This document shows positions 3,940 to 59,186 of a DNA stretch of 60,262 nucleotides, one piece after another. Position numbers and translations under genes: made by a program. How positions within the stretch are numbered: position 1 is the stretch's first letter; each line of letters opens with the position of its first letter. Location: contig JBBHKE010000266.1 in the NCBI GenBank assembly GCA_037447655.1, positions 1 through 60,262 on the forward strand. The letters are read 5' to 3'. Origin of the DNA: Zygnema cylindricum. Lineage: Eukaryota; Streptophyta; Zygnematophyceae; Zygnematales; Zygnemataceae. Below the pieces are notes generated by a model. It was given only the letters and a program-made list of their open reading frames with translations, had not been told where the DNA came from and made no database searches.

Positions 3940-3959
3940 CAAATTTTAGCCCCTATTAT

Positions 3960-4598
3960 GTGTTGTTTCGTCGAAAACCACTACTAGGTAGGAATGTACA
4001 GAAAGTCGCGAGCTTACCTCTACCTCTCATGTTTGATTCTCTGTTTTTGGAAGAACTAACTAACCGAGCGTTGCTTTTTGCTAGAGAAATGCCCATTGCC
4101 TTTGAAAACTTGCAGATTGCCCAACATCGCGACTGCTTACGGTTTGCGACAACTTGCACTGGCAGCTACCGGCCACAACAAAAACCCTTCCGGGTGGGGG
4201 ACTACGTTTATTTGCGGCGGCAAACTTTTGACACACTCGACACGGATGTTTCGGCTCACATTTTGAGGAAAACCAAAATCGACGCCAATGGATTATTAAG
4301 CTTACAAGGGGCTGACCCGCGAAATTTGCGGGAGCATTCAAAAAATTCTTCTCCTTGCTATCTACCTGACCTTTCCCACAACATGGACCCGTGGCGGATG
4401 TCGATTACCGAGGCCACTGAGTGCCAATTATGCCGGCGATCTGATGGAGAAACAACAATGCTCCTCTGTGACTATTGCAATCTGAGATCCCATATGGTGT
4501 GTTTGGTTCCACCTCTGCATACTATCCCGACTGGAAATTGGTTTTGCCACGGATGTCGCTACCTACCAGCAGTTTTTACCAGCTCCTCCGAAGGCTAA
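3960..4598 (+). CDS. Integrase C-terminal domain fused to a PHD finger
   Basis: These 212 residues are the C-terminal end of the gypsy pol. Residues ~78-90 (PFRVGDYVYLRR) resemble the integrase C-terminal SH3-like fold, followed by a LLSLQGADPR strand typical of this region. Residues 155-199 form a PHD finger with complete C4-H-C3 spacing: Cys155, 158, 170, 173, His178, Cys181, 196, 199, plus the Trp two residues before the last Cys pair. PHD fingers commonly read histone H3 tails, so a role in targeting integration is a reasonable inference, as for chromodomains in chromoviruses. The frame continues from a broken integrase. A G-rich tract just after the stop (4602-4617) is the likely polypurine tract. 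Confidence 0.8.
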   Translation: MLFRRKPLLGRNVQKVASLPLPLMFDSLFLEELTNRALLFAREMPIAFENLQIAQHRDCLRFATTCTGSYRPQQKPFRVGDYVYLRRQTFDTLDTDVSAHILRKTKIDANGLLSLQGADPRNLREHSKNSSPCYLPDLSHNMDPWRMSITEATECQLCRRSDGETTMLLCDYCNLRSHMVCLVPPLHTIPTGNWFCHGCRYLPAVFTSSSEG

Positions 4599-5566: not shown

Positions 5567-6455
5567 TGTTGAAAAGAGGTAATTAATAGTTCACTTCCCT
5601 ATTTTAGTTTTGTTTTAAAGAAAGAGAGTGAGGATCAAAGGCGCGCCATGGCTGCCGCCATATTTAGAAAGTGGCAGTTTTTGCAGATAAGGGTATTTTG
5701 GATAAAATGATGCCTAGGTCTAGATTTGAACCTGTGACCTCTAGATCTTTATAGCCTAAACGCCTTAACCATTAAGGCGTTACGAAACGATACACGTGAC
5801 GGGTTTCATAAATATATAAACATTAACGAAACAGCTAATTAACAGCAGACTAACCAAAATGAGCAATTTCTGCATGTACGCGAATCTGAACCGTGTAAAA
5901 TATGTTTTGATCGGACGGCCGGCATTAAAGCCGCCACGCGAAGTGAGCTTTTCGGCGGCATACGGATATAGCGTCACGCGGTGCCACGTGGCGCCACATT
6001 ATTTGATACCGGAGAAGATGGGAGGAGGAACCATGGCTTCCGATATGATAGGTGTCACCTTGTAGACCTTGTCGTACAATAGTTGTACAATAAGTACATC
6101 GCCCATTGTACCTTCTTGTACTTTATAGTGTTCCTATTGGACTAGGGTTTAATAGTAGGTAGTCGTGAGTAGGCAGACCGAGACTCAGTAATATTTAGGT
6201 ACCTCTCTCTAAGAGAGCTTGTAACTATAAAGGTCGTCTTTGACCAGCCATAACTTACTGCTCGGGTGAGCAAATTCAGTGATTCTTTTTGCGTTTGACT
6301 CAGGGGAGTCTTGTCCTCACAAGGGTGAGAGTGGTCAGAATATTTGTGTGCCTGGGCGGCGCTTATTCAGCGGGAAAGTAGAAGGGGGAAATATTATCCT
6401 AGAGGCTTTACATAGGCTGCTCATTCTGTGGGTCAATGGAGACCACAGAATTTCA
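5567..6455 (+). repeat. 5' LTR of the intact copia element
   Basis: 889 bp, from TGTTGAAAAG to TTTCA. An antisense tRNA-like module lies at ~5718-5781 (B-box complement, then a perfect 10-bp hairpin at 5759-5781). The last ~35 bp form a hairpin (attctgtgg pairing with ccacagaat, 6423-6450) next to the PBS. Many GTAC-containing motifs lie around 6070-6120. The gag frame starts inside the LTR at 6436. Confidence 0.92.
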
Positions 6456-9400
6456 GGTTATGGGCCCACCCTCTAGGGTGCCCATATTTGATGGATCAGA
6501 CTTTCTTTATTGGGAAATGATGATGGAGGGAGAACTATTTGAGAAGCATTTATGGGGCATAGTGTCTAGACAAATTCGATGCCCACCTCCACCTGGGTTT
6601 GGAGGGACACGTTTTTCTGGCACCTCCGCCTCTACAGTTGGTAGAACAGTTGCCACCATCACCGAGGATGAAGATGAGGAAGCAGAAGAGATTGTCATGG
6701 AAGGAGAAAAGGAAAGAGTTGCAACTCAAGTAACACCATTGCCGAAGGCGATACCGGCAGCAGCACCACCAGCAACAACGACAAGGGTTCAGTCCGAAAG
6801 ATCAGAGTATGAAAAGTGGAACTACAAAGACAAGGTTGCTAAGCTCTTAATTCTTAAAAGTGTAGCAAAGGGCATTGCCATTCCCCTTATGCATGTCAAA
6901 TCTTCATCTCAGATTTGGATATCACTAGTTAACAAATATAAGAGTGGATCATTGCAGCAGCAACAGTTGGCAGAAAATAAGATTGCAGCTTATACTTATA
7001 AGGGAGGAAGTATGGATAATTATTGTAATGATTTAGGAGCATTGTTTGGAGAGTTAGAGAGTGCAGGTAACTCATGGTCTGAGAGACAAAGAGTGAACAC
7101 ATTAATGATGAAACTACCTGAAGAGTATGAGAATATCATTAACCGATTGCAGGACATAGGAGATAGCAATTGGAATTGGGATGACACTGTGGGAATGATT
7201 TTAGTGAAAAAAAGCACCATAGAGCTTAGGAGAGGGAGTCCAAGTGTTCAAGCATTGTCTGCACAAGCTGATTGGCGGAAGCGTGATGAGGAGAGAGGGA
7301 AAGATCCTTATCGAAACTTTGGTGGAAGAGGACAAGGAGGTGGCAGGTTTGATAGACATGGGAGAGGAACTTCTCGAGGAGGATTATGTCACTTCTGCAA
7401 GAAACCGGGACACTATATGGCAGATTGTGTCAGACTTGCAAATCTTCGACTGAAAGATGGTCAAGGAACTTCAAAGGACGGAGGAAAGAAAAAGGCTTTC
7501 CTGACTCAAGTTCTTGATGAGGAAGTGGAAGGAAAAACTGAACCTGAAGAGGAGCTTGAGGAGCTTCTCCTTAATCCGAAAAACACTGAAAAGCATGTCG
7601 ACATTCCACGGAGACAAAAGTGTGCTTTCGGAGGTAAGAGGGATCCACCCGAGGATGGGTGGATCATAGACTCAGGGGCTTCAATGCATATGTGCAAAGA
7701 TAAGCGGTGGTTCACTAAACTGAGAAAGATCCCAACAGTTGAGATAGAGTACGGAGATGGTAGAGTAGAAACCACAAGTCTTGTTGGAACTGTTGACTTG
7801 AAGGTTCTAGTTGATGGAAAGGCCTCAATTGTAACACTCTCAGACGTTCTTTACATTCCACAACTTAGCAAGAACCTAGTCTCAACAGCTGTCCTAGATG
7901 AAAAGGAGTTTGAAACAGGAACTAGGAAAGGAATCTTCACAGCAAGCTTTGATAATGAGGTTTATTTCATAGCTGAGAAGGGCAGTCAAGGAATGTTCAG
8001 AATTGTACTTTGCAATGAAAAGAGTGTTCTCTACTCGTGTGCAAGTGAGATGATGCTTTGGCATAAAAGGTTGGGGCATGTGCATCTAGATAGATTAAAG
8101 AAAATGAAGAAAAATGGAATAGTGGAGGGTATTACTTTTGAAGATGATGAGACCTTTGATGATTGTAGTGGATGTGCCCAAGGGAAGATTCATAGACTTC
8201 CATTTCCAAAGGCAACCACATTTAGGAGAGAGAAAGTATTAGATCTAGTTCACACTGATATTTGGGGACCTGCTAGGTATGCCTCACATGGGGGGAAAAG
8301 ATGGATGTTAACTATCACAGATGATTGGTCTAGATACACGAAGGTATACTTTCTCAGACATAAGTCAGAGGTATTAAGATGTTTCAAAGAGTATAAAGTA
8401 TGGAGTGAAAAGCTACATGAAACCTCAATAAAAGAGATAAGAAGTGATAATGGGAAAGAATACACCTCAAGGGATTTTGAGGAATATCTTAAAGAAGAAG
8501 GAATTCATCATGAGAAAACTATTCCCTATAATCCGGAACAAAATGGGGTAGCAGAAAGAGTGAATAGAACTTTAGGAGATATGTCCAGAAGTATGTTAAG
8601 TGATAAGAGGATAGGGCTGCAGTTTTGGGCTGAGTCTATGAACTATGCTAATTTCATCAAAAATAGAGTCCTAACTTCAGCAAATAAAGAGAAAACTCCG
8701 TATGAGAGGTGGACAGGAAGAAAGCCTGATTTGTCTAGTTTGAGAGTGTTCGGAAGTCAAGTCTACAGTTTGGATTCCGATAAGACTAAATGGAAGTTAG
8801 AGGGAAGAGGGAAACCAGGATATCTTGTAGGATATGATGAGAGCACAAAAGGATACCGAGTGTATGACTTGAAAAAGAGAGATATAATTTTGGTAAAACA
8901 CATAGTGGTGATGAATGAAGAGAAGTCCATTGATCCATTCAAATATAATAAGGAAGTCAAAATCAGATTTGAAACGGATCAGTTTTCTGACTTTGACTTT
9001 GAAAATGAAGAGAGGGAAGAGGGAGAAAAAGAAAAATCTACAGATCTACCAAAGGAGAAGGAGGAAAGGACAACATCCGAGGCAACGCCACAATACGAAG
9101 TGGAAACCGATGAGGAACTTTATGAGACACCGGAATCGGAAGATAGGGAAGCTGAAAATCTCCCAAAACGAAACCCAAGGATGCCTTCCATACCAGCGTC
9201 AGATTTTGAAGGGGGAAGAAGAAGTAGTAAACGACTTCAAGAAAGACAAGTAAATAACCAACTCACAAAGATGTCTCACCCAGATGAACCTCAAACATAC
9301 TTAGAGGCCATAAACAGTCCAGAAAGTAGCCGGTGGATCACAGCTATAAATGAAGAAATGGCCTCTATCATGGAAGCCAATACATGGGAGTTGGTAGATT

Positions 9401-10885: not shown

Positions 10886-11777
10886 TGTTGAAAAGAGGTA
10901 ATTAATAGTTCACTTCCCTATTTTAGTTTTCTTTTAAAGAAAGAGAGTGAGGATCAAAGGCGCGCCATGGCTGCCGCCATATTTAGAAAGTGGCAGTTTT
11001 TGCAGATAAGGGTATTTTGGATAAAATGATGCCTAGGTCTAGATTTGAACCTGTGATCTCTACACCCTTTATAGCCTAAACACCTTAACCATTAAGGCGT
11101 TACGAAACGATACACGTGACGGGTTTCATAAATATATAAACATTAACGAAACAGCTAATTAACAGCAGACTAACCAAAATGAGCAATTTCTGCATGTACG
11201 CGAATCTGAACCGTGTAAAATATGTTTTGATCGGACGGCCGGCATTAAAGCCGCCACGGGAAGTGAGCTTTTCGGCGGCATACGGATATAGCGTCACGCG
11301 GTGCCACGTGGCGCCACATTATTTGATACCGGAGAAGATGGGAGGAGGAACCATGGCTTCCGATATGACAGGTGTCACCTTGTAGACCTTGTCGTACAAT
11401 AGTTGTACAATAAGTACATCGCCCATTGTACCTTCTTGTACTTTATAGTGTTCCTATTGGACTAGGGTTTAATAGTAGGTAGTCGTGAGTAGGCAGACCG
11501 AGACTCAGTAATATTTAGGTACCTCTCTCTCTAAGAGAGCTTGTAACTATAAAGGTCGTCTTTGACCAGCCATAACTTACTGCTCCGGTGAGCAAATTCA
11601 GTGATTCTTTTTGCGTTTGACTCAGGGGAGTCTTGTCCTCACAAGGGTGAGAGTGGTCAGAATATTTGTGTGCCTGGGTGGCGCTTATTCAGCGGGAAAT
11701 TAGAAGGGGCAAATATTATCCTAGAGGCTTTACATAGGCTGCTCATTCTGTGGGTCAATGGAGACCACAGAATTTCA
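10886..11777 (+). repeat. 3' LTR of the intact copia element
   Basis: 892 bp, about 98.6% identical to the 5' LTR by eye. Differences include a CT-dinucleotide expansion near 11525 and several substitutions around 11060-11100, where the A-box side of the antisense tRNA-like module has changed. It ends TTTCA, followed by unrelated sequence. Confidence 0.92.
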
Positions 11778-12010
11778 GTTTCCCTCCAGACTGTCTTCTA
11801 CTTGCTGTGATTTGTGAATTGTGTCTGTGGAGTTGGTGTTTTCTTGCTGTTTGGACGCTGAGCGTACGGGCTAGTACTCACCTTGTCTGGCCTTCGAGAA
11901 ATACCGGTTATCTCGGCTCTTTCATCCGGCTAAGGAAGGGTTCTTACCAGCTGATTGGACTCCTGTAGGGAATATTGATGACTTCAGGGCCTAGTGGCTA
12001 CTGTCGCAAA
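11778..12010 (+). other. Non-coding remnant, probably the rest of the interrupted gypsy LTR
   Basis: This sequence lies between the copia 3' LTR and a new start of the gypsy LTR. I see no coding motif. By position it could be the distal part of the gypsy LTR cut at 5566, but there is no second copy here to align it with. Confidence 0.35.
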
Positions 12011-16838: not shown

Positions 16839-16994
16839 ATGTTACAGATACTTTAGTTGAATGTGATGAGGATTTTTTTTCCCCTAATACTATAATAGAA
16901 GTAGCGCCTGGCGATGGTCAAATACCTAAAAGTATTTTTCAAGATACGTATTCAGAAGGGCTAAGTTATCGAAGTATTTTTGTTTTAGGCTAAA

Positions 16995-17435
16995 ATGTCG
17001 TTAAACGATAGACTACGAAAAAATACTACATATAGAGATGTATGCAAGTTGGAACTACGTAATGATGATCGTCGTGTAGCTTGTCATATTTCAAATATCA
17101 TTTTTATATTTTGTAGGTATCAACTCGGTCAAATTCGTAATGTTATACATATAAAATTAAGAAAAAGTTTTATTAAACATTTAAATGAAAATAAAATCAA
17201 TATTGGTAATCTCTTTAATGAAGAAAAATGGTTAGAATTTTTTCAAAATGATTTTTTATATCAAGAGTTTAACAAAATTAGAGGAACACCTCAATATTGG
17301 ACATCAACTAAACGTGATATTTTTTCAATGTTCAGACAACTTGGTCGACCTACTTTCTTTATGTCATTCTGTATGGCAGATACAAATCGTATGAATTACA
17401 TCAAATTTTGTCAAAAACTATTAATGATAAAATAA
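16995..17435 (+). pseudogene. Helitron-like N-terminal domain
   Basis: 146 open codons. The segment RGTPQYWTSTKRDIFSMFRQ (near residues 95-114), followed by LGRPTFFMSFCMAD (around 115-128), is the characteristic helitron_like_N signature preceding the Rep active site. The start NDRLRKNTTYRDVCKLELRN also resembles the N-terminal region of Helitron proteins. A slip just after residue 130 moves the continuation to another frame. Confidence 0.82.
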
Positions 17436-18275
17436 TCTCTTCACTAGAGGCTAAAAATTGATTTTTTGATGAAATATGTCGATTAGTTCGTTTAGATATT
17501 GTTACTTATTCTCATTATTATCGGTATAGAATTCAATTATTTTTTAATGTGGTTCTTAAAAATTGTTGTGAAATTATAGGGGTCTAATTGATTAGTTTAC
17601 TGTCGATGAGTTCCAAAATCGAGGATCTCCTCATACACATTTAATTTGTTATGTTAATACATTTCAAAATTTATTTTACTCTTTAGGTGTTTTAGATAAA
17701 ACAAAAATGATTGCTTTTATTGATTTATATGTTACTTGTTCAAAAGATAGTGTTAATGAGTCTTTAATAAGTGTCTAAATCTATATATATATATATAAAT
17801 ATATATATCGAAAAAATTATTGCTTGAGAAAAAACAAAACAATTATCCTTGTCATTTTGGTTATCCTATTCCTCCAATGCCTAAAACAGTAATTTAAGAT
17901 CCTATAAAAAAATATGATCATATTGATGTAGATAAAACAAAAAAGATATTGAAAGTAATACATGATTGGTTAGAGACTTTTGGTGTTACTTTTGATTGTC
18001 ACATGTCACTTGACGATGTGTTAATTAAATTTAATTTAAATGAGAATGAGTATTTGGATGTTATTCGTTGTACTATAAATAAAACTACTTTATTTATCAA
18101 ACGTAACCCTGATGAATGCAAAATAAATGCTTATAATATTAAAGCTTTATCATTATGGCAAACTAATATGGATATACAATTTTATTTATATCACTTTGCG
18201 TGTGCTAAGTATGTTGTTAGTTATATGACGAAAGGACAACAAAGGATGAGTAATATAATGGAGAAAGACATCTGA
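17436..18275 (+). pseudogene. Rep (rolling-circle) nuclease domain of the Helentron
   Basis: The remainder of the Rep domain is spread over frames. Around 17608-17660 EFQNRGSPHTHLICY contains the His-x-His metal-binding motif. The open stretch 17949-18275 ends with KRNPDECKINAYNIKALSLW and CAKYVVSYMTKGQQRMS, where two Tyr separated by three residues match the Rep catalytic Tyr pair. TAA, TAG and TGA all interrupt it, and an AT microsatellite lies at ~17780-17812. Confidence 0.8.
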
Positions 18276-18415
18276 GAAGCACTGCATGATCACCCACTCT
18301 CAGTTGCGTACTCCTTGCATGTACTACCTCGCTGTGATATTCACCAATGCCAAGGTCACCTGGTAGTCCCTCATCAGCTCTCCATGACACCAGCCTGATC
18401 TTAGAAATCCAGGCT

Positions 18416-20740
18416 TGTAATGAAGCTCGAAATGAAAATTTAAATATAAAAGAACAATTCAAACTAATTGGCAATAGTTTTATTTATGCACATGAAATGT
18501 CAGCACAAGAAGCGTGTTACATTTTTTTAGGGTTACCGTTTAGAAATAGTTCAAGAGGTAATATTTATATTAATACAAATATACATGAAAATAGGGTGTG
18601 TTTGATAAAATCGTTTTCTGAATTACAACAAATGGATAAAGATGATACTAATGTTGCTAAACCAAATGATTTATTGAAACGATATGTGTTACGTCTAAAT
18701 TGATTAGAAGTTGTTTGTTTAATTCGTTTTGCTGCTTTGTATGATGAAGTTTCTTCGACTAATTTGATAAAAAAATATGATGCTGAAGATATTGCTGATG
18801 AACTTGTCGAAGATAAATTTATAGATTATCTGAATGATATTTCTTATGGTCCAAGTTTATCTAAAGGGAAAAAATATTAGAAAAAAAAACCATATATAGT
18901 GCGATATTAAAAATGTTTTAATAAAGACGCAGAAGATGATTTTAAACGATGTGAACTTATGTTGTATGTACCATGGCGTGATGAAAACACAATGCTTGAT
19001 CGAAACTTTTTATAAGTTATACATGAATTGTATTTGGATAAAATAGAGACCATTAAGTTTGAATTCGAGGCTGAAAAAGTTGATTGGAGTAATTTAGAAA
19101 ATGAGGTTTTAAGTGATCTTAAAGTTGACAAAAGAGATGATGAAGTACTGAATGATACTCTAGTCGATTAAGAAAAAATGATTGATGAATTTGATATTTG
19201 TTTGCACCTTGGAATGAATCCATCTGTTTCAATTATTCGGTTTGTTACTAACAATAAAATGCGTTATGATGATGAATTTAAATGAATGGCTCGCTCTTTG
19301 AATACTAAGCAAAGACTATTTTTTTATCATGTTATACGAAAAATTCAGACTTTTTGTGAACCAATACGTGTGATTTTAACTGGTGGAGTTGGTGTTGGTA
19401 AATTTTTATTGTTCAACACACTATATAGGTTATTGTAAGAATTTTCATGAATAAAAATAATAAAGATTTTGATAAGCCTTCAGTATTACGATTAAACCCC
19501 CACAAAAACAGCTGCTTTTCAAAGTAATGGTAACACTTGTCATAGTGGTTTACATATTTCACCCAAAGAATCAACGTCTCCATCAAGTTTGACTTTTGAT
19601 AAATTAAACATATTTATTTCTAAATTAACTAGTATTAAAGTTGTTATGATTGATGAAGTTTCTATGGTTGGTTGAAAGATGTTTCATTGAAATGATTTTC
19701 TTTTGAGGGAACCAACGGGTAAAAAAATATTCTTTTTGGGGGTTTGCACATTATTGCTTGTGGTGATATTTTTCAATTAAAACCTGTTGGTGATGGTTTT
19801 ATTTTTGAGTATCCTCATGTTCTTTACTCAAGTTTAAGTACAAATTTATGGAAATCAAATTTTGAAGTGTTTGAATTAACCTAAATTATGTGACAAAAAG
19901 ATGAGATTTTTTTTGCAAAATTACTAAATAGACTAAAGGAAAGTAACCATATTAAAGTTGATATTAAAGAATTAAAAAAACATGAAATATCAAAAAAGAA
20001 AAATAAACCTTCAATAAAGATGCCCATTTATTTCGATTAAATAATTTAGTTGATAAACATAATGAATCTGTTTTTTAATTCATTAAATCTGATGGATATA
20101 TAATCGATGTTATCGATAAAACTAAAAAAAAAGATGGAAGTGAAGATTTAATAATTTTATCTGATGCATTTTACAAAAAAAAATAAAATGAAGTAACAAC
20201 TAAAAAAATAATTGAGATTGAAAATATGCATGAAAGTGGAAGTTTGTTTAAACATTGATATTAATGATGGGCTGACAAACAATGCTGATGGGGAACTTTG
20301 TCATTTCATAGGATTAGATAATGATGTAAAAATGATTTGGGTTAATTTTGAAAATGATCGAATTGGTTATAAAACTCGTGATTTGGTAAAAAATCATAAT
20401 TTCAAAGAGTTTATTTCTAAAAGATGGACCCTTATTACTTGAGTTACTAAATCATTTAATATTTCAGAAAATAATATTGAAATAGAAAGAAAACAATTTT
20501 CGTTAAGCCCTAGTAATGCTATAACAATTCATAGATCCCAAAGTCAAAAATTTCTTGAATGTGTTGTTAATTTAGATAGACACAAACATCATGGTGTTCA
20601 TTACGTGGGATTAAGTTGTTTTTATAGTTTGGTTAATTTGTTTATTGATAATTAAAATGAAAATCATATAAATGTATTTAATGATGTAAAAGATGAAATG
20701 TTAAGGTTACGTAGTAGTAAACAATTGGTTTAATCTTCAA
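18416..20740 (+). pseudogene. Pif1-family helicase domain of the Helentron
   Basis: Broken frames contain the full motif order. ACNEARNENLNIKEQFKLIG and the QEACYIFLGLPFRNSSRG region link Rep to the helicase. LNTKQRLFFYHVI precedes Walker A LTGGVGVGK (near 19378-19403). Walker B VVMIDEVSMVG lies near 19641, followed by CGDIFQLKPVGDG (near 19758) and the C-terminal NAITIHRSQSQK (near 20517). Stops of all three kinds and several slips show long decay. Confidence 0.82.
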
Positions 20741-27372: not shown

Positions 27373-28337
27373 TGTAACAGAATCTCCTACCTCTCAAAAA
27401 ATTCCATTACTACTCACAATCCCAACCACACATTCCACACATTGGAAAATACACATCCACATTGGACCACACTCACATAAGGATAAACTTTAAATTAGAA
27501 TAAGCTTCTGTCCACATAACATTAGCTTGGTCTCTTGCCCTCGTGGCTCAACCCTTCTTATTAAAGTGTTTTCCACTACTCTCCACTCTTAATAATTCTA
27601 TCTCATAACTACTAAAACACTATTTAGTTAGCAAGAGATTTCAATGCAAAATGCCTTTTCTCCAATTTGGTATTAATCGCTCTGGACCAAGATCAACCGG
27701 AATTTCCACAAACTTTTCCCAAAGGAAAAGATGTCTACTCTCCTCTTACACTTCACTATTTATCCATCATCGCCCTGGACTCGCCAGGCCAGAGCGCTCC
27801 GTTTTAACAGGCTTTTACCTGGGCCAATCATTGATCAACAAAGACTCAGACTGACCAATGCAAAAACGTGCGAAATCTCTTACTAACTACTTAGCACTTT
27901 ACTAACCAATCAAAAGTTACGTTTCACTACGTAACATTTACGTGCAAAAGTGCGCGCCAAACGAAAAGCGACTTCGCACGATCGTGCGTAACAAATTTCG
28001 CACGCGAAACTTCCTTCGAAATTCCCTTAAGTAAAAGTTACGTTTTGTACTAAAATTTGTATGAAACGAACCACCGTGCATACTAAACGTTTCGTTAGAA
28101 CTTTATGAAATGTACACGCGTAATTTCGGTACTAATTTGACCCTTAACCCGTTTCAATGATACCCACTTGTTATTTAGACCCCACGCTGTCACCTAAATA
28201 CACCCATCGCTATAACTTTTAAAATATAACTCCAAATAGCGTGATTATTTCGCGGACGTCTACCAAATTTAGTACTCTATAATCATAATACCTAAATACT
28301 CATTTATAAACAAGTTCGATCCGCTATTGCTGTTACA
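27373..28337 (-). repeat. 3' LTR of gypsy-2
   Basis: 965 bp, close to the 5' LTR by eye (about 95%). The 5' LTR has one extra copy of the cattccacacattg unit. Next to it on the internal side is the purine tract (minus strand aaggagggga). Confidence 0.9.
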
Positions 28338-28355
28338 TCATCCCCTCCTTATTTT

Positions 28356-29228
28356 TAACTGACCTCAGTTAATCACCTTTAATTCTAAAGACGGGACTTC
28401 TATATTATTATCCCTCCAATACCTCTGTAAAAACTCAGAATTTTTATCCTCTAAAGTCAACTCATCCTCAGGCCTTCCTAGATAATGCACTTGCGAGAAT
28501 ATATTATCGCTGACCCTAAACCGTTGACCAACCCAATCTATTACCTATCTGTGGACTTCAGGTTCTATAATTATTGAGGGATCCAATTCCAATTCTCCTT
28601 CCATTGGTCGAAGATTTGCTGGTTTCAATTGCCTGATGTGTATCACTGGATGAATTTTTGTTGAAGGCGGAAAGTCCAATTTGGCAACAACTGACGATAT
28701 CATCTCGATTACAGTAAATGGTCCAATGTACTTAGGAGCAAATTTCCCCGTAGGATCTGATTGTCCCTCAATCTTGCACCTGTAATGAGTTGAAGAAAGC
28801 CAAACCTTGTCACCTGTGCGTAACACCCAATCACCCCTTTTGCGGTTAGCATTTAATTCTTGCCTCCTTTGTGCCTCCACTAATGCACCTCGGACAGTTT
28901 TCCAAACTGTGTGAACGTATTCCCAAAACTCTGTTCCAGAACCTCTATTCACTTGAGTGACATTTGTTATTAAGTCCAATGCTTCTGTAGGTTGGTATCC
29001 GTATGCAAATTTAAATGGTGAGAATCCTGTACTAGCATGTTTACATGAATTGTATGCAAATTCCATTATAGGCAATTTAGATTCCCATGTGTTTTGAACT
29101 CCACTGGAAACAGTCCTAAACATTTCCCATAGTGTACGGTTCATCCGTTCTGTCTGTCCATCTGTTTGAGGATGATAAGCGGTACTCATTTTCAATTCAG
29201 AGCCTAAATTTTGTGTAATTCTTTCCAA
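28356..29228 (-). pseudogene. Gypsy-2 integrase, distal core and C-terminal domain
   Basis: It begins LGSELKMSTAYHPQTDGQTER, where the Glu of PQTDGQTE completes the D,D-35-E triad, followed by EFAYNSCKHASTGFSPF. Residues ~130-215 contain GDKVWLSS, the integrase C-terminal SH3-like domain, and the FTVIEMISSVVAKLDFP strand pattern. A TAG at ~28543 interrupts the frame. It then stays open for ~65 further codons to a TGA at ~28356, just before the polypurine tract; this tail resembles the position of a chromodomain. Translation past the TAG is not established. Confidence 0.85.
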
Positions 29229-30445
29229 AAAGCAGTCGTAAATTTGGAATCTCTATCAATGAGTATAGATAGAGGGACTCCATGATGTCTGACCACGTTG
29301 TCAAAATATAACTTTCCAACATCTACAACTAAATGAGTGGTTTTGCAAGGGATAAAGATTACCATTTTACTGAACATATCGATACGACCATGATACTGTC
29401 ATTCTTTTTAGATGTAGCAGGCAACGTGGCAATAAAATCCATACTGACAGATTCCCACGGTCTTTCGGGGATATCCAAAGGTTTTAAGAGACCTTTAGGT
29501 TTTTGGGTACTGGGTTTACTCTATTGGCAAGGGACACAACTTTCCACGTGTTTTGACACCTCCTTTGCCATCCCAAGCCAAAACAATCTACTTTGCAATC
29601 GACTAAGAGTTTTATCTCGACCTAGATGTCCTAAATGCTTATGAGCTTCCCGTAAAATTTGTTTTCTTAAGTCTCCCACTTCAAGAATGCATAATCTATC
29701 CCCAATTTGCAAATAGAGTAAACCATCTTCTAGTCTAAAGTTTTTGACATGCATCTCATTCAATGGGTCAGAATTCCCTCCCGAAATATTCTCGTAAATC
29801 ACAACAAAATAAGGATCTTTATCATAACCATTTCTAACTGTATCTAAAAACAATTCATCTTGAACCATAACACTTATTTCAAAACATCTACTTAAAGGAT
29901 TTGCGACTACATTTGTCTTCCCAGGAATATCTTTGACATTAAATTTGAAATATGCTAATTTATGCATCCACCTAACCTGTCTGCCAGTCATAATCTGCGC
30001 ATCACTTAATCTTTGTAAATAAGATAGCGCTTTATTATCACAGTGAACTGTAAATTCTTTATTGTGCAAATAACAACGCCATTTCACCAATGCATGTACA
30101 ATTGCAAGTAATTCCTTTTCCTGTGCTGTATAGTTATTTTCAGCATCATTGAATTTTTCTGGACTCAAAAGCAATAGGATGAAAGTGTTTGCCGACTTTT
30201 TGACTTATGGCTGCACCTAAACCTTTATCAGATGCATCTGTAGTGATCATAACTTCAAATTCCCCGGCAAGGTCAAGATACACCAGTGTAGGGGCAGAGG
30301 TCAACATCCCTTTTAATTCCTCGAATGCTCCCTGCTGATCAGCTCCCCACACAAACGTCTCCTTCTCCCGAAGTAAATTAGTCAAAGGTGCGGCGATCAT
30401 AGTGAAATTCCTGATAAATTTCCTGTAATAAGTGGCCAATCCCAA
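29229..30445 (-). pseudogene. Gypsy-2 RNase H and integrase zinc-finger/core
   Basis: Starting at 30445 it covers the end of RT (GLATYYRKFIRNF), then RNase H with TTDASDKGLGA (first catalytic Asp), the NYTAQEKELLAIVHAL block (Glu) and VHCDNKALSYL (Asp). The HHCC finger follows (HKHLGHLGRDKTL, then CVPCQ). The core begins with SVSMDFIATLP and ILIDRDSKF, supplying the first two catalytic Asp. Two slips, one in an A-run near 30160 and one near 29390, and a TAG after CVPCQ split the frame. Confidence 0.87.
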
Positions 30446-30467
30446 AAACGATCTAACTTCTGTGACA

Positions 30468-31400
30468 TTAGTAGGTTGTTTCTAATTTTGGATTGCTAAA
30501 TTTGGATGGATCTGTTTTAACACCTTCCCCACTAACTATATGTCCTAAAAATAATTGTTCACTTTTAAGAAAACTAGATTTTGACAATTTTCCATATAAT
30601 TTTCTTTCTCTTAACCTTTCCAACACTTTTTTTAAATGAGTTATATTTTGTTCTTTAGATTCACTGTAAACTAAAATATCATCTATAAACACTTGGACAA
30701 ACTCATTTATGTAATCAGAAAAGGTTTGGTTCATTAATCTTTAGTAAGTAGGCGGTGCATTCGTTAAGCCGAATGGCATCACTATCCATTCGAAATGACC
30801 CACCCTAGTCCTGAAAGCAGTTTTATCAACATCTTCAATTCTAATTGGCACCTGATTAAAGCCACTACGTAGGTCAATCAACGAACATACTTTAGCACCT
30901 TTTAAACGATCTATCAAATCAGAAATTAAAGGTAACGGATACTTATCCTTCACTGTAATCTTATTCAGACTACGATAATCGACACAGATTCTCAACGTTC
31001 CGTCTTTCTTTTTGACGAAGAGAACGGGTGCTGCATACGGTGATTTGCTGGGCTGAATATGTCCTTTCTCTTGGAGTTCTGTGAACTGTTTCTTTAACTC
31101 CTCCTGCTCAAAAAAACTGTGTTTATAAATTCCTGTGACAGGAGGATTACATCCACGTTCAAGGTTAATAACACGTTGTACATCTCGGGAAGGTGGCCTT
31201 CCCGAGGGTAAATCACTAGGGAAAACATCTTGAAATTCAAAAATCAAATCCTTAACAGCAACATCAGATGTATTAATGTCAGTTACAAAATCAGATTTTA
31301 GTTTTTCGAAAGTTTTAGTGGTGTCTGATTTAGTGATGACATCAATGTTAGTGTTTTCTCCCCTCCTTTCTTCAGTAACTGCCTCAGTTACTAATAACAA
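30468..31400 (-). pseudogene. Gypsy-2 reverse transcriptase
   Basis: From 31400: a linker, then the RT domain. [20 protein letters not shown] opens it. The region [20 protein letters not shown], with the [12 protein letters not shown] strand, is the fingers. [14 protein letters not shown] has the first catalytic Asp, MPFGLTNAP follows, and FIDDILVYS holds the catalytic Asp pair. A TAA at ~30738 replaces the Gln of the normally invariant F-Q-R-L-M-N block. A slip near 30510 and a TAG at the usual A-I-Q-N-W Trp follow. All catalytic residues are present. Confidence 0.9.
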
Positions 31401-32080
31401 GAAATCATGATTTGTTTTATCTTTTAAGTGTTTTTTAAATTGTTTAGCAGATATCTAACCTTCCACTGCCAATCTGGTTATGTTATTTATATGATTCCTA
31501 TGCATTTTTTTAGGAGATAATGCTTGCAAAGCCTTCCAACCGTTTTTCATAACTCACTTTCAATGTGTTAATTTCCCAATTAATTTGAGGATTGTGTTCA
31601 GTTAACCAAGGCTTTCCCAAAATTAGTTATTCACTTCCCAAATTCATTATTTCACACACAACTTTCATTTTATGACCCTGGATATCAACTTTTATCGTGT
31701 CAGTTTGTAAGTCTAATGTGGACTTATTACCATTTGCCACTTGAACATGTAAAGCCTTTTCCCTTATGACAGTAGGAATTTTATTTTCCTCTACAAACAA
31801 ATATGAAATAAAATTATGTGTGGCACCTGAATCAACCATTACTCTCAACGGTTTTCTTTCCACTAATGACTCGAATCTAATCAAACTGTGTCTGGTGTCA
31901 TCATTACTTAACTGTCCTAACATAAGTCTGTTGTTGAGAATTTCATCACAAGGATTCTTTAAACTATGTAGTGTAGTGAGAATCATAATAAATTCAGCTA
32001 TCCTAACTTTTCCATTCATTAATTTGCCCTCCAAAGTTAACTCTTTAACTTCTCGATCCGGTTGACTCAACTGAGGACTT
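31401..32080 (-). pseudogene. Gypsy-2 aspartic protease and linker
   Basis: Residues ~75-90 of the open stretch 32070-31627 read RVMVDSGATHNFIS, the retroviral-type aspartic protease active site D-S-G-A. The downstream LGSE-x-LILGKPWL resembles the second protease strand (usually I-L-G-M-D-W-L), with TAA at the x. A second TAG lies before [11 protein letters not shown]. The entry to this frame from gag is shifted by one base, so gag and protease are in different frames here. Confidence 0.85.
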
Positions 32081-33406
32081 TCAATTAGTCCTTTCCGTTT
32101 CCCACCTCTTGGGCTTCTTGCTCAGCTAGGTATAATGCAATATCTTCTTGGAGACCTTCATTTACATCGACTAATTTGAGAGAACTTTTATTTGTACAGT
32201 CTTTAGCGTAATGATCTGGACCTCCGCATTTAAAACAAGTGACTTTCTTTTTGGATTTTATGCACTCTCTACTAAAATGTCCCTCCTCTCCACAATTATA
32301 ACAATTAATCTTTTTCAGTTGTGCACTTTAAATGCTCTATGACCCTTTTTCTGACAAATAGTGCATGTGGGGATGGTAAGGTTAAGCTTCTAGGCATTAA
32401 TGCTTGGTTTAGGACTTTTAATGTACCTCCCTCTATTGTTAAATTTATTTCCTGCATTAACACTATGTCCACCCCTTTGATTTCCCTTGAAGATATTTTG
32501 CCTCTTCACCAGACCAACATTCAGACCCTGTTCAACAAATTCCTCCTCATCCCACTCTGATATTTCATTCAAATTACCCCTGAGTGATCGAGTTTCCCGA
32601 TTATACCCTAACTGATCCTCTAATTCTAATGACTTATCTTGTAATTCCTTCAAATTATTAAATTTTTGATGTTTTAGTTCTGATTTCAATATAGGATTCA
32701 AATAGTTCAAGAAATGCAGTTTAGCCATTTCACCAGTCAAACCTATGACATGAATGCTAGATGAGTCAAATTCCACAATATAATCCTTCACAAATCCAGT
32801 CTGTTTACAATTCAACCACTTTTCTTCCATTCTGGATTTAAAAGTGACAGACAAGAAACGCGATTTGATCGCGGTTTTAAAAGTTTCCCAATCAATATTA
32901 TCAGGAATCAATTTAGACCTTCTCTAAGTATAATACCAAATCTGAGCATCGCCTTTCAGACAGTTAACAGCAAAAAAAGTGTAATCATCACGATCGCAAT
33001 TTCTTGACTCCAAATAATATTCCATATGAAAAATCCAAGCATCCAACTCATCGATACTCTTACCATCAAACGATGGTGCTTCACTAATAGACAATTTCAT
33101 ATCCCTTATCTTCTTAGGTCTATCATGATCATCCTCCCTAAAACTGGCATTCCTTTTACTACTCTCACCCTTTTGGTCATTCATATCATTCTTGGTCTGA
33201 ATTAAGTTAATAAGTTCATCTAATTTCTCATTTGAAACATTTCCATTTTCTTTGACAACTTTCAATTCACTTTTCAATTCGGAAATGGTTTCATCCACAG
33301 CGGCAGCATGATTATTAAATCTTTTGACCAATTTCACAGTCCGCTTCTTCAACACATTCAACGCATTCTCCATTTCGCGTTTCCATGCAGAATTTGCCAT
33401 TATCAC
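32081..33406 (-). pseudogene. Gypsy-2 gag with zinc knuckles
   Basis: It starts at MIMANSAWKREMENALNVLK (33406). A coiled-coil-like N-terminus is followed by the capsid-like region LDAWIFHMEYYLESRNC (~residues 125-141), which resembles retrotransposon gag. After a TAG at ~32922 the same protein continues as IPDNIDWETFKTAIKSRF (around residue 163). The C-terminus has CTICQKKGHRAF and two complete CCHC knuckles, CYNCGEEGHFSREC (near 32280) and CFKCGGPDHYAKDC (near 32220). One slip separates the first knuckle-like motif from the next. Confidence 0.87.
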
Positions 33407-34157
33407 ACAATGAAATCAAGCAAAAGAAAGATAGAGTATAATTTCCCAATGAAATTTGATGCAGATTTGAAGTCCTCAGATTGCTCCAATCCAAGACTTC
33501 TTCTCCTTAACAAATCCTTTGAAAAGATTAAGATCTGAGAAATTAAAAAGACATTGACAGTTAGTTAGTACAAATTTCGAATTTTCAATTTCCCAACATT
33601 GAAATAGAAGGTAAGAATTTCTCCACAAATTTTGCAATAGCAAAATTGAAAGCTCTCAAAGGTAAGATTTAACTATAAATTTCGCAACAGCAAATTTGAA
33701 ATCAATCAAAAGTAACAATTTAGAGTTTGAAAAGTTTTGAGTCATTTTTGGACTCCTTTGCTCTTGAAGAAGTAAAGTACTCCACTTTCCTTCTCCTCCA
33801 TTAGCAAATTTCCCACTTCCCACTTCATCAGGATCTTTTACCCTCCAATCCTCACATCCTCACCCTTGATGGCTTCAAGCCCCCCCTCTACACATGAATC
33901 ATTGCTAAGAGAAGGCAAGTTTGTTTGGCCTCTACGTAATTGGAGTGAGCTTCAGCGGTGGCTACACTACCTACCCCGCCTTAGTCCTGAGGACCTAAGC
34001 GCGCCCCACATCTAACCAGCGTCCGCTGGCAGTGTGGTCACTTAGTTTCCCTCCAATCCCCTACCACTCACATTGTGGTTCCACTAACCCGGGTCAGAGC
34101 ACTCTCACTGGTCACGGCAGTCAATTTCGGGTGAGCAAGCTTCTCTTTGGCTTTAAA
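33407..34157 (-). other. Gypsy-2 untranslated leader
   Basis: About 750 bp between the PBS and gag. Its gag-proximal half has imperfect repeats of caaattttgcaa/ttgaaa type (33580-33720); the LTR-proximal part is more GC-rich. No open frame with recognisable motifs. Confidence 0.6.
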
Positions 34158-34173
34158 CCAAGCTTTGATACCA
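34158..34173 (-). promoter_or_regulatory. PBS of gypsy-2 (initiator tRNA-Met 3' end)
   Basis: The minus strand reads TGGTATCAAAGCTTGG two bases inside the 5' LTR. It is complementary to the 3' end of initiator tRNA-Met with one difference from the common plant PBS TGGTATCAGAGC. Confidence 0.85.
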
Positions 34174-34175
34174 TA

Positions 34176-35154
34176 TGTAACAAGATCTCCTACCTCTCAG
34201 AAAATCCCATTACTACTCACAATCTCAACCACACATTCCACACATTCCACACATTGGAAAATACACATCGTCATTGGACCACACTCACATAAGGATAAAC
34301 TTTAAATTAGAAAAAGCTTCTGTCTACATAACATTAGCTTGGTTTCTTGCCCTCGTGGCTCAACCCTTCTTATTAAAGTGTTTTCCACTACTCACCACTC
34401 TTTATAATTCTATCTTTTAACTACTAAAACACTATTTAGTTAGTAAGAGATTTCAATGCAAAATGCCTTTTCTCCAATTTGGTATTCATCGCTCAGGACC
34501 AAGATCAGCCGGAATTTCCACAAACTTTTCCCAAAGGAAAAGATGTCTGGTCTCCTCTTACACTTCACTATTTATTCATCATTGCCTTGGACTCGCCAGG
34601 CCAGAGTCAACGCTGTGTTTTAACAGGCTATTACCTGGGCCAATCATTGATCAACAAAGACTCAGACTGACCCATGCAAAAACGTGTGAAATCTCTTACT
34701 AACTACTTAGCACTTTACTAACCAATCAAAAGTTACGTTTCGCTACGTAACATTTACGTGCAAAAGTGCGCGCCAAACGAAAAGCGACTTCCCACGATCG
34801 TGCGTAACAAATTTCGCACGCGAAACTTCCTTCGAAATCCCCTTAAGTAAAAGTGACGTTTTGTACTAAAATTTGTACGAAACGAAACACCGTGCATACT
34901 AAGCGTTTCGTTAGAACTTTATGAAATGTACACGCGTAATTTCGGTACTAATTTGACCCTTAACCCGATTCAATGATACCCACTTGTTATTTAGACCCCA
35001 CGCTGTCACCTAAATACACCCATCGCTATTAACTTTTAAAATATAACTCCAAATAGCGTGATTCTTTCGCGGACGTCTACCAAATTTAGTACTCTATAAT
35101 CATAATACCTAAATACCCCTTTATAAACAAGTTCGATCCGCTATTGCTGTTACA
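34176..35154 (-). repeat. 5' LTR of gypsy-2
   Basis: 979 bp bounded by TGTAAC and GTTACA. It shares all blocks with the 3' LTR and with older copies at 12258 and 39841. Confidence 0.9.
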
Positions 35155-56080: not shown

Positions 56081-58660
56081 TTTCAGTTTTCATATACATG
56101 GATATTGTTATGTTTATGACCAAATTAGAGGCTTTTTCCTATATCAAAAAAACACATAAAAAGTAGACCGAAACCATTAAAATAGTAGTGAAAAATGAAA
56201 CCAAAGTATTCCGGGTTGGAAAAGCAAAGATCAAGAAAGATACGCTGCAAGAAGTAAAATAAAAGAAGTCATGTTTTTAGCATTTACATATGATTCACAA
56301 ACGAAAAAATGCCAAGTACATTTAACATATTTAAATGTGATAATGTCATCGAAACAACATGAAAGCAATAAAAAAAACACACAATGAATAAGATTTTTAT
56401 AAAAAGTTGACACAAAAAATCATTCATTAACAACAATGGGAATATAAATACCAAATTTATATATCATGATAAACTCTTTTTACAACATTAAACTAAAACA
56501 AAAAGTTATCTAGGGCATATTAATCTATAATAGCCAAAAGCTCTAAATAGTATTTAACTCTTAACGTTTATGCTTCTAGCTCGGAAATCCGCTTTACAAA
56601 ACTTTAAAACCCTCGTATTTTACACACACTAAGTATCAACGATTTGTGATAACAAGTATAGATCCATGAAAAGCTCCTCACGGTATATTCCATGCGCTTT
56701 CGTATGGTCGAATAACTTCAATATGATTTTTTCTTCATCCTCACGATCGTATGATTCCGCAAGGTGCTCTCCAATACAACAGGCAATCAGATATAAGTTC
56801 ATTGTCGATGACAATTCAAAATATAAAAAAGATATAAAGATAACGGATTCGTAGGGGGTATATGGGCTTGACAAATATAACGTGAAAAAGAGGGACAGAG
56901 AGAGAGAGACTAAAAGAGTATGTTATATTCGGGGATTCCAATGAAATATATGGAGACATAGCGACAAAGTGATGGTGGATGGTTAACGATCAGGGAGATA
57001 AATAAGGCCAAGGGGCAAGAAGGGAGATAATATGAAAGAGGGAGTGACAAAAAATCAGAGAGGGCACGAGAGACACAAGTGGGGAGAAATGAAAAATGAT
57101 AGATTGAAAGAGTTAGATAACAGGATGGAGAGCAATGATGAGAGAGAAACAAGTGTCGAAGGATGAGCAAATATTTAAGAGGGAAGATTTACCGGTGAGT
57201 TAATGAGAGACGAACTAAGAGGGACACAGAACGAAAAAGAGAGTAAAATGGGGAAAAAACGAGTCAGAAAGAAAAACAGAGAAAGGATATACGACAGAGA
57301 GAGAGTGGGAAGAAGAGAGTGGGAGAGAAGAGTAAGGAAAGGGAATGGGAAAAAATGTGGGAGATGGACAATTCGTAGAGGGAGAAGTTAAGGGATATTG
57401 AGGAAGAAATAATTAATGAGGAAGAATAAGGAGGTAGAGAGCGCAGGAGAGATGAATAAACATACTGAGATGCGCACTTACCAATGATTTCCTAATAATC
57501 TCGGAAAAATATAGCGACGATGTTGGATCGGACTTCCTTGTTGTTCCGCCATATTACAGTCTACCCTACTAGTGTTGTAAACCCTAAAAAGAGGTATACA
57601 TTATTGGATGCCGCAAGACTAAGCAAGGCGGTGAGGCGATGATCCGCATCCTGCCCAAAAAATGGCGACATCGTGTAAAAATGGATCTGCGAGATTCAAA
57701 AGCCTGCCGCCGGGAAATGAGGGTGTGGTTGGGATTTGTTTGACCGCAAAATCTTTTTTTTGTTTTTTGTCTGCATATGCCGTTGGTTTGTTATCAGTTC
57801 TCGTTTTCAAGGCGCCGCGTTTTTTCAATTCTAAATTTTGTAACGTCACTCTAATGTTTACACAATATGACACTAATTTGTTGTCGTTTTGTGAAACATA
57901 TCCCATTTTAAAGTCAAACTTAACTCTAATAAGCGTCTCTTTCGTTTAAAGGTCTGGTATTACCGTATGTTTCCTTTTAACCCTTTTATAGAGTAAATGT
58001 ATACTCTAATAATCTCGCAGGATCTCAAATAGAGTTAAAAAGGCACCGTATTAGACTTAACTTTCCGCGACTATCAACATGTGTAAGTATGCAACACTAC
58101 GTTTACGTAATATGGACAGTTTTTAGCATGTGCACATGTTATCCGTTCACACTGTCACACACAAAAACGAACGTCTGAATGTATGCGAACGCCTATTTTA
58201 CAAACTCGACTCCATTGTTTTTCTAAACGCAGCTTTGTATGCGACCGACATAAGTTAACAACAATTTCCGGACAAATTTTGGTAACGAAGTACACTGTTG
58301 TACGAACAAACTACTTCCGTACACCACATTATTCATGAATCCAGTACGGTATTACCATTGACGCTAATTTACTTGAACCATAATTAACGTCAAAGATAAA
58401 TTAGATTCATTCACTGTATTTCGGGTATCAATGTCAAAATTTTGGGGTGCCGATATAGCGTACATAAGGCTAATAACGATTCGCGGTGTACCACGCAAGT
58501 CCGAACACAACAGACTGCAAGATGGCTTAGGGCGTGTCCCAATGTAACCGAAACTTTGAAACGTTACTTTGGATTTTAGCGCCGATTTTACGGTGTACTT
58601 TTCAAAGTGTGCCTATGTCAATCGTTACTTTTGCGTTCATTACTTCGAATGTGTGACAAT
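56081..58660. other. Gene-poor stretch with a purine-rich tract
   Basis: 56885-57445 is strongly purine-rich on the plus strand (gagagag, aaagag). A minus-strand frame at 56629-56874 (81 residues, ending EELFMDLYLLSQIVDT) looks protein-like but matches nothing I know. 57960-58500 has TIR-element motifs (ctctaataatctcg, ttgacgctaattt, cgattcgcggtgtac) of the CACCG-ended group. No confirmed gene. Confidence 0.4.
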
Positions 58661-58662
58661 TG

Positions 58663-58893
58663 TGTTGGATTGGCACGTGAATGCCGGTTCAATACAGGGT
58701 AGAATGTGATACGTCACAGTTGAACCCGCCTAAAAAGAAATAGGTACGGACCCGCCAGGCTCTACATCGAGCTGGTGGCACAGTGGTTAGTGCGCTGACA
58801 GCTCAAGTCAGAGGTCCCAGGTTCGAGCCCTGGCCGGCTCACTTTTCCCTAGTATGGGACATACCGAATCCCGGATTTCTAGGAAATCTAACA
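58663..58893 (+). repeat. TRIM 5' LTR
   Basis: 231 bp, same length as the 3' LTR, with only a few differences concentrated in the 3' half. Contains the intact tRNA-like gene at 58769-58841 and a short inverted-repeat end (TGTTGGATT / AATCTAACA). Confidence 0.95.
58769..58841 (+). tRNA. tRNA-like gene in the TRIM 5' LTR
   Basis: Folds as a complete cloverleaf. The acceptor stem GAGCTGG/CCGGCTC has 7 pairs including one G-U. The D stem is GCAC/GTGC with the A14, G18-G19 and A21 positions in place. The anticodon stem is CTGAC/GTCAG (5 pairs) and the T stem CCAGG/CCTGG encloses loop TTCGAGC. Variable loop 5 nt, discriminator A, then TTTT (58843-58846). A and B boxes are near consensus. The anticodon loop AGCTCAA puts CTC at the anticodon (nominally Glu), but position 33 is G, not the near-universal U. 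Translational use is therefore doubtful, while Pol III transcription is plausible. Confidence 0.75.
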
Positions 58894-58950
58894 TGGTATC
58901 GGAGCGAGCGGGATTGCGGATGGTGTGACCGGCCTTCCCGTGAGGGGGGG
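58894..58950 (+). other. TRIM internal region with PBS and PPT
   Basis: 57 bp. PBS TGGTATCGGAGC at 58894-58905 is complementary to the initiator tRNA-Met 3' end with one change. The polypurine tract occupies 58941-58950. Nothing else is encoded. Confidence 0.92.
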
Positions 58951-59181
58951 TGTTGGATTGGCACGTGAATGCCGGTTCAATACGGGGTAGAATGTGATAC
59001 GTCACACTTGAACCCGCCTAAAAAGAAATAGGTACGGACCCGCCAGGCTCTACATCGAGCTGGTGGCACAGTGGTTAGTGCGCTGACAGCTCAAGTCAGA
59101 GGTCCCAGGTTCGAGTCCTAGCCAACTCACTTTTCCCTAGTATGGGACATACTGAAGCCCCGATTTCTAGGAAATCTAACA
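58951..59181 (+). repeat. TRIM 3' LTR
   Basis: 231 bp. Its tRNA-like part (59057-59129) keeps the D and anticodon arms exactly but has changes in the 3' acceptor strand (CCAACTC) and the T stem (CCTAG), weakening both stems. The B box GGTTCGAGTCC is perfect. Confidence 0.95.
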
Positions 59182-59186
59182 AATTG

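Follow-up and report, generated by a model that had tools for sequence, protein, structure and literature searches.

What a tRNA-like sequence does in the LTRs of a small retrotransposon is the question raised by an element of the streptophyte alga Zygnema cylindricum, on contig JBBHKE010000266.1 (GenBank assembly GCA_037447655.1), the whole stretch of which, 60,262 nucleotides, was analysed and is referred to below as the window. The element (positions 58663–59181; 231 + 57 + 231 = 519 bp) is a TRIM, i.e., a non-autonomous LTR retrotransposon (Table 1). An earlier note on this DNA described LTRs of equal length, a primer-binding site (PBS), a polypurine tract (PPT), and an AATTG duplication, and this structure is correct to the base. 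The two LTRs differ at nine positions over 231 bp, and no stop-to-stop open reading frame of at least 110 amino acids overlaps the element or its internal region.

Table 1. Features of the element and its flanks, in window coordinates.
Feature	Positions	Strand	Description
Target-site duplication, left	58658–58662		AATTG, perfect
5' LTR (LTR1)	58663–58893	+	231 bp, TGTTGG...CTAACA
tRNA-like sequence, 5' LTR	58769–58841	+	RF00005, 54.6 bits, E 5.1e-9; ARAGORN Glu-CTC
Box A, 5' LTR	58776–58786	+	TGGCACAGTGG
Box B, 5' LTR	58820–58830	+	GGTTCGAGCCC
T4, minimal Pol III terminator, 5' LTR	58843–58846	+	
Internal region	58894–58950	+	57 bp, non-coding; starts TGGTATCGGAGC, ends GTGAGGGGGGG
Primer-binding site (PBS)	58894–58907	+	TGGTATCGGAGCGA in the window element
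Polypurine tract (PPT)	58940–58950	+	GTGAGGGGGGG, directly before the 3' LTR
3' LTR (LTR2)	58951–59181	+	231 bp
tRNA-like sequence, 3' LTR	59057–59129	+	RF00005, 48.5 bits, E 2.4e-7; ARAGORN Glu-CTC
Box A, 3' LTR	59064–59074	+	TGGCACAGTGG, same as in the 5' LTR
Box B, 3' LTR	59108–59118	+	GGTTCGAGTCC
T4, minimal Pol III terminator, 3' LTR	59131–59134	+	
Target-site duplication, right	59182–59186		AATTG, perfect

The Rfam tRNA model RF00005 (gathering score 29) matches both LTRs, and no further match to any Rfam family with an E-value of 1 or less is seen anywhere in the 60-kb window; ARAGORN likewise calls tRNAs at these two sites of the window only. The tRNA-like sequence of 73 nt that had been noticed in each LTR, together with its two boxes and the T4, is confirmed. 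The two T4 runs are the only runs of at least four T on the plus strand of the element.

Mobile genes for working tRNAs, dispersed by an LTR element, are one conceivable reading, and the Rfam score far above the gathering score and the acceptance of copies by ARAGORN as Glu, Gln, Ala, and other types speak for it. U at position 33 is universal in tRNAs. The anticodon loop of the sequence at 58769–58841 is AGCUCAA, with G at position 33; G is found there in the usual loops of A and B, the two subfamilies described below, and C in those of family E. Since the usual loops of A, B, and E have no U33, the tRNA-like parts are unlikely to be working tRNAs, and, since the ARAGORN isotype also wanders between similar copies, a role in translation is very unlikely. 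By its sequence, the tRNA-like part probably does not act as a translational tRNA, and we regard dispersed working tRNA genes as scarcely credible.

Family A, to which the window element belongs, is repetitive in the genome (352.8 Mb, 2689 contigs searched), and all copies used were found through similarity to known copies. The search with the whole element gave 44 matches from the best 40 of 928 first-look candidates, 43 of these 44 being longer than 400 bases, at 87–100% identity. The genome contains 63 exact instances of a box A-to-box B pattern and none of its reversed control. Of 39 regions fetched for family A, 31 have both outer LTR ends, and exact 5-bp duplications flank 18 of these 31 complete elements, compared to 1 of 272 shifted controls; with the same-flank locus pairs L029/L030 and L043/L044 counted once, 17 of 29 elements have an exact duplication. 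An exact scan of viral contigs gave no match.

Among the pattern-found loci, 21 have a single LTR match, and exact duplications are present in 4 of the 14 that were tested. In the other ten, the end of the internal part lies directly before the LTRs of L090, L091, and L115, and a similar G-run before that of L093; these four are hence truncated elements, not solo LTRs. Family A thus has solo LTRs, as does Helenus, a group of TRIMs considered below. Tandem arrays of the form LTR–internal–LTR–internal–LTR are seen in L028, L032, and L039. Three of 36 two-LTR A-type elements show no difference between their LTRs and are apparently, from this identity, very recent insertions; all six of their LTRs score 54.6 bits with RF00005. 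Across the 39 fetched loci, 44 of 82 LTR matches reach the gathering score of this model.

The middle LTR of the tandem L039 represents a second subfamily, B. The search for B gave 84 matches from 40 of 975 first-look candidates, most at 94–98% identity. Exact 5-bp duplications are present in 9 of 12 fetched B elements; 6 of the 12 show no LTR–LTR difference, and 3 were left uncompared, as their LTRs are of unequal length. Judging by these sequences, subfamily B is young. Lineages intermediate between A and B are represented by L119 and L138–L144. The earlier note had proposed a search for dispersed copies with target duplications; many copies exist in the genome, with exact 5-bp duplications in both subfamilies.

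Several B LTRs form tandem arrays (contigs C683, C2060, and C346), with steps of 286 bp in C683 (five LTRs) and C346 (three LTRs); these arrays resemble tandem TRIMs in other plants. At a smaller scale, the 5' part of the tRNA-like sequence is partially duplicated in tandem within single LTRs of L114, L119, L143, L147, and L097; slippage, or template jumps that recurred close to box A, may be the cause.

One B element, L134, has a chimeric LTR1 (L134:49–279), in which the 5' half of the tRNA-like part is swapped for E-like sequence; its LTR2 is an ordinary B LTR, and an exact target duplication is present. The chimera suggests, at the level of sequence, gene conversion or template exchange between families. 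Family E was discovered with the chimeric stretch as the query, which gave 40 matches from 40 of 628 candidates, several of them about 307 bp apart. Two or more LTRs are present in four of six fetched regions; the LTR is 246 bp long and the internal part 61 bp, with the PBS TGGTATCAGAGC and the PPT CGTGAGGGGGCG. An exact duplication is seen in one of four copies (L146, AACTG). Between A and E, BLAST aligns nothing outside the tRNA-like part (73 positions at 74%, E 1e-5); the first seven bases of the LTR are also alike.

The near-complete conservation of the D and anticodon arms in both LTRs of the window element had been offered as a sign of selection. We reject this argument: the LTRs differ at 4 of 73 positions in the tRNA-like part and at 5 of 158 in the rest (Fisher p 0.47), and, because both LTRs of an insertion are made from a single template, their agreement is no evidence of selection. 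Relative to LTR1, two of the four differences in the tRNA-like part of LTR2 disrupt a pair in a stem, one replaces G-U by A-U, and one lies in the T loop.

The LTR pair does provide a yardstick. Both LTRs are identical at insertion, so differences between them reflect decay after insertion, and states common to both LTRs, compared across elements, reflect change in the transposing lineage, i.e., before insertion. This comparison was made on 34 elements obtained by whole-element similarity, with the duplicated-flank loci L030 and L044 dropped; the set excludes loci fetched later (tRNA-pattern finds among them), and no reference copy was used. LTR–LTR decay affects 195 of 2468 sites (7.9%) in the tRNA-like part and 331 of 5279 (6.3%) in the rest, whereas the diversity of agreed states between elements is about six-fold lower in the tRNA-like part (0.0065 vs. 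0.0379); normalised by decay, the ratio of the tRNA-like part to the rest is 0.14 (bootstrap 0.05–0.25). Since the elements are related and not independent, tests on alignment columns give the safer figures: any agreed minor state is seen in 6 of 73 tRNA-like columns and 32 of 158 others (p 0.022), and the same agreed minor state in at least two elements in 1 of 73 and 14 of 158, respectively (p 0.041). A version with a single young copy as the reference showed a stronger contrast (10/2468 vs. 203/5273) and was set aside, being inflated by reference-specific states.

As decay after insertion is commoner in the tRNA-like part and diversity before insertion is lower, this part seems to be selected during transposition. 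It appears to be under purifying selection while the family transposes, not after insertion; the pattern suggests a sequence that is kept in the jumping lineage and decays after a copy lands. The expectation that the tRNA-like part would be better conserved across copies than the rest of the LTR is borne out in this sense only: before insertion it belongs to the most strongly constrained stretches of the LTR, whereas the plain copy-to-copy pairwise difference (0.080 in the tRNA-like part vs. 0.092 elsewhere) is not significant (p 0.30). Neither of the two outcomes named in the earlier note as refuting the promoter hypothesis, a lack of other copies or a tRNA-like part that is the least conserved, is seen. 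Columns with variants shared by at least 10% of copies, 4 of 73 vs. 17 of 158, are not significantly different either (p 0.23). The quietest 73-nt blocks start at LTR positions 122–126 (0.0054, vs. 0.0065 for the tRNA block at 107), i.e., they begin 15–19 positions within the tRNA-like part and extend beyond the terminator. Between A and B, differences are found at 26 of 105 aligned sites of U3, 7 of 72 of the tRNA-like part, and 7 of 51 of the post-tRNA part.

Such constraint may act on the promoter boxes or, beyond them, on the folded tRNA-like RNA of the R region, which could aid dimerisation, strand transfer, or packaging, make the RNA more stable, or be recognised by factors that bind tRNA. 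The segment with the lowest agreed-state diversity of nine LTR segments (0.0025) is the anticodon arm (LTR 126–150), which internal Pol III promoters are not known to require. The anticodon stem is fully paired as CUGAC/GUCAG in A, UUGAC/GUCAA in L138 and L139, UUCAC/GUGAA in L141, and UUCGC/GUGAA in B; five random changes in the stem would preserve all five pairs with p 0.009. A broken pair is seen in some rows of L140, L119, and L144, and a ready-made paired stem could arrive by recombination with another tRNA-like sequence, as in L134.

Pairing was also counted over the whole cloverleaf in 14 hand-picked rows, 13 from the 71 distinct tRNA-like stretches plus the second LTR of L119, with the chimera L134 included: 92.9% of cells are paired, a level that none of 500 shuffles reaches, and five pairs are doubly changed (4 of 500 as high). 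The count was repeated with 17 rows, with the chimera and that L119 row out, and L118 and four B rows in. Here, the paired fraction holds at 93.2% (0 of 500 as high), but only two doubly changed pairs are left, both in the anticodon stem, and 458 of 500 shuffles are as high; moreover, doubly changed pairs may trace to one single line of descent. The minimum-free-energy fold (RNAfold) of either tRNA-like stretch of the window element, taken in isolation, is not a cloverleaf (z -1.1 and -0.05). Selection on the RNA fold is possible; that the fold, beyond the boxes, is the target of selection we consider rather doubtful. A fuller proposal, in which the cloverleaf acts as RNA in addition to its promoter role, the R region being a needed folded tRNA mimic whose stem is rebuilt by compensating changes and whose halves are exchangeable, as in L134, is conceivable, though less likely than not. 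A promoter function of the tRNA-like part is likely on the sequence evidence.

We consider it probable that the element is a Helenus-type TRIM with a tRNA-derived internal Pol III promoter in its LTRs, and a leaky promoter–terminator would be the likeliest role of the tRNA-like part. TFIIIC would bind box A and box B of the 5' LTR, and Pol III would start just upstream of the tRNA-like part. At a leaky T4, some transcripts would end as tRNA-like RNAs of about 80 nt; others would pass through the 57-bp internal part before stopping at the second T4, in LTR2. The R region would then roughly coincide with the tRNA-like sequence itself and lie at both ends of the RNA, as strand transfer requires. 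A tRNA with an initiator-Met-like 3' end would prime at the PBS, the PPT would prime the second strand, and the proteins of an autonomous LTR element would carry out reverse transcription and insertion. A single leaky-T4 design in both LTRs would thus yield two products, the short tRNA-like RNA and the element RNA. Of this picture, the sequences themselves show the LTRs, the PBS-like site, the PPT, and the 5-bp duplications (in two subfamilies and one E copy), together with recent insertions with identical LTRs and a tRNA-like part that is constrained while the lineage transposes and not after insertion.

The terminator is a difficult point for this model. The T4 of the 5' LTR lies about 75 nt past the start of the tRNA-like part and should halt many Pol III transcripts ahead of the PBS, which counts against the model. 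In mammalian assays, the share of transcripts terminated by TTTT is about 65% for the B2 SINE, compared to about 95% for a tRNA gene; both TTTT and TVTTT are described as the shortest terminators of moderate efficiency (PMC8466645). In A copies, ACTTTTCC is kept in 67 of 78 A-type LTRs, T4 being the usual state; for comparison, the exact box A is kept in 53 of 78 and the commonest box B in 42 of 78. T4 follows the tRNA-like part in all 24 B LTRs and all 9 E LTRs examined, and longer T-runs are rare at this place in the examined LTRs of A, B, and E. A run held at four T in all three, neither lost nor lengthened, would fit a leaky T4.

The same obstacle to a full-length Pol III transcript would be of no concern if the TRIM were driven by Pol II and the tRNA-like part were a captured SINE, an LTR passenger conserved for another reason or by chance. 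An origin by insertion of a SINE into an LTR is indeed what Kojima proposes for Helenus (PMC10886601), and an antisense tRNA-like box pair is also present in the LTRs of the Copia element of the window. A passenger, however, would not rank among the slowest-changing LTR parts of the transposing lineage, and A and E, whose BLAST alignment covers the tRNA-like part and nothing else, the first seven bases of their LTRs being alike as well, both retain a tRNA-like core. We therefore judge the Pol II reading improbable, and prefer the tRNA-derived Pol III promoter.

As for the primer, the PBS TGGTATC[G/A]GAGCCAGC is found in 28 of 40 pattern-caught internal parts, with G at position 8 in 22 and A in 6. 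It resembles a sequence that would pair with a plant initiator-Met tRNA at its 3' end, the G form by way of a G-U pair. In seven young B elements (L126–L132; LTRs with 0 or 1 differences), the PBS varies at positions 1, 8, and 9, the forms being GG, AG, and AA; such variation is expected if the PBS is re-copied in each round from varying primer tRNAs. Fungal Helenus share a PBS or internal region with an autonomous Copia element. The larger elements of the window have other sites, half-tRNA-like in the Copia element and TGGTATCAAAGC in the Gypsy-type one, and no autonomous partner was found, these two elements included.

The LTRs of the Copia element (5567–6459 and 10886–11781) are 98.3% identical. 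Their opposite strand has a box A and box B pair with a spacing of about 40 bases and TTTT after it (5771–5732 and 11091–11051, minus strand), and a related pair lies at 173–212 on the plus strand; the antisense boxes of the Copia LTRs were rejected as a tRNA, as they give no tRNA covariance match. Within 6436–6470 of this element, the PBS-like GGTTATGGGCCCACC presumably pairs with the anticodon half of plant initiator-Met tRNA, fitting 15 of 15 bases, and an ATG of the long open reading frame (6436) lies within the LTR, upstream of the PBS. A decayed Gypsy-type element occupies 27400–35150 on the minus strand, with pieces of gag, protease, and RT, and with TGGTATCAAAGC at 34173. At 2312–4598, a Gypsy-type RNase H frame comes before one that encodes a PHD finger (PF00628, E 2e-9), and an A+T-rich stretch at 16989–18703 has a weak match to Helitron_like_N (E 1.9e-5), below the cut-off.

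Among known systems, tRNA-derived SINEs (SINE2) share with the element the tRNA-derived boxes A and B and a presumed Pol III transcription. Such SINEs have no LTRs, a LINE-type 3' tail, and variable duplications. The element described here differs in having LTRs, a PBS, a PPT, and fixed 5-bp duplications, all of which point to LTR-type reverse transcription and insertion by an integrase, not to mobilisation by a LINE.

Cassandra, by contrast, is a TRIM whose LTRs hold an internal Pol III promoter and whose PBS is of the methionine type (PMC10853983); tandem arrays are described for it as well (PMC4717578). The element shares with it the Pol III-type LTR promoter (predicted here), a putative Met-type PBS, and the tandem arrays. 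The LTRs of Cassandra, however, carry 5S rRNA sequence, and those of the window element are tRNA-like; no Rfam match to 5S rRNA is found in the 60-kb window, only tRNA matches.

The closest likeness is to Helenus, described by Kojima (2024; PMC10886601) as TRIMs with tRNA-derived LTR sequence from fungi, animals, and one plant (Selaginella), and grouped there with Cassandra and Ajax as TRIMp3. The view of the earlier note that Cassandra had no well-described tRNA counterpart was thus wrong, although in other respects the note comes near to Kojima's account (PMC10886601). As described in that account, the likeness extends to the architecture of two LTRs and a short internal part, with 519 bp falling within the 311–1263 bp of the described families; tRNA-derived LTR sequence with boxes A and B; a PBS-like site, a PPT, and no coding capacity; target duplications of 5 bp, a trait of Helenus in fungi and plants; the presence of several families in one genome; and an isotype often inconsistent with a working tRNA (PMC10886601). 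Pol III transcription of Helenus is taken there from motif conservation and described as experimentally unvalidated (PMC10886601). The host here, a streptophyte alga, is different; a report of Helenus in streptophyte algae was not found in the literature listings searched. Ribosomal protein L4 from locus L073 is 85% identical to a sequence labelled jgi/Mesen1, presumably Mesotaenium, 85–86% to four others, 81% to ferns, Riccia, Marchantia, and Sphagnum, and 76–77% to sequences labelled SM0001..., presumably from the zygnematophyte Spirogloea; this protein suggests a streptophyte alga, probably a zygnematophyte, and the tRNA genes of the genome resemble those of plants. A rust fungus, from a group with many Helenus, was rejected as the host after the PBS, the tRNA genes, and L4 had pointed to green plants. 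Searches with two Copia proteins were unspecific as to the host, with plants but also a spider and a fly among the named matches. The element is probably a member of Helenus, present as several families in what is probably a new host lineage.

The comparison of selection within and between elements and the compensated anticodon stem are reported here and are absent from the text of Kojima's paper that was consulted (PMC10886601). What is added is a test of constraint made within a single genome, along with a first clue to a role of the RNA fold. For annotators of tRNAs, the genome of Z. cylindricum calls for caution, containing many sequences that score as tRNA and do not resemble working tRNA genes. 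For Helenus, the LTR pair of each insertion is a built-in neutral yardstick that points to purifying selection during transposition, and the promoter claim can now be put to the test in a green alga whose insertions are in part apparently very recent. These families also raise the separate question of a role for the RNA fold; if the tRNA mimic is true, the R region would be needed for strand transfer, packaging, or survival of the RNA.
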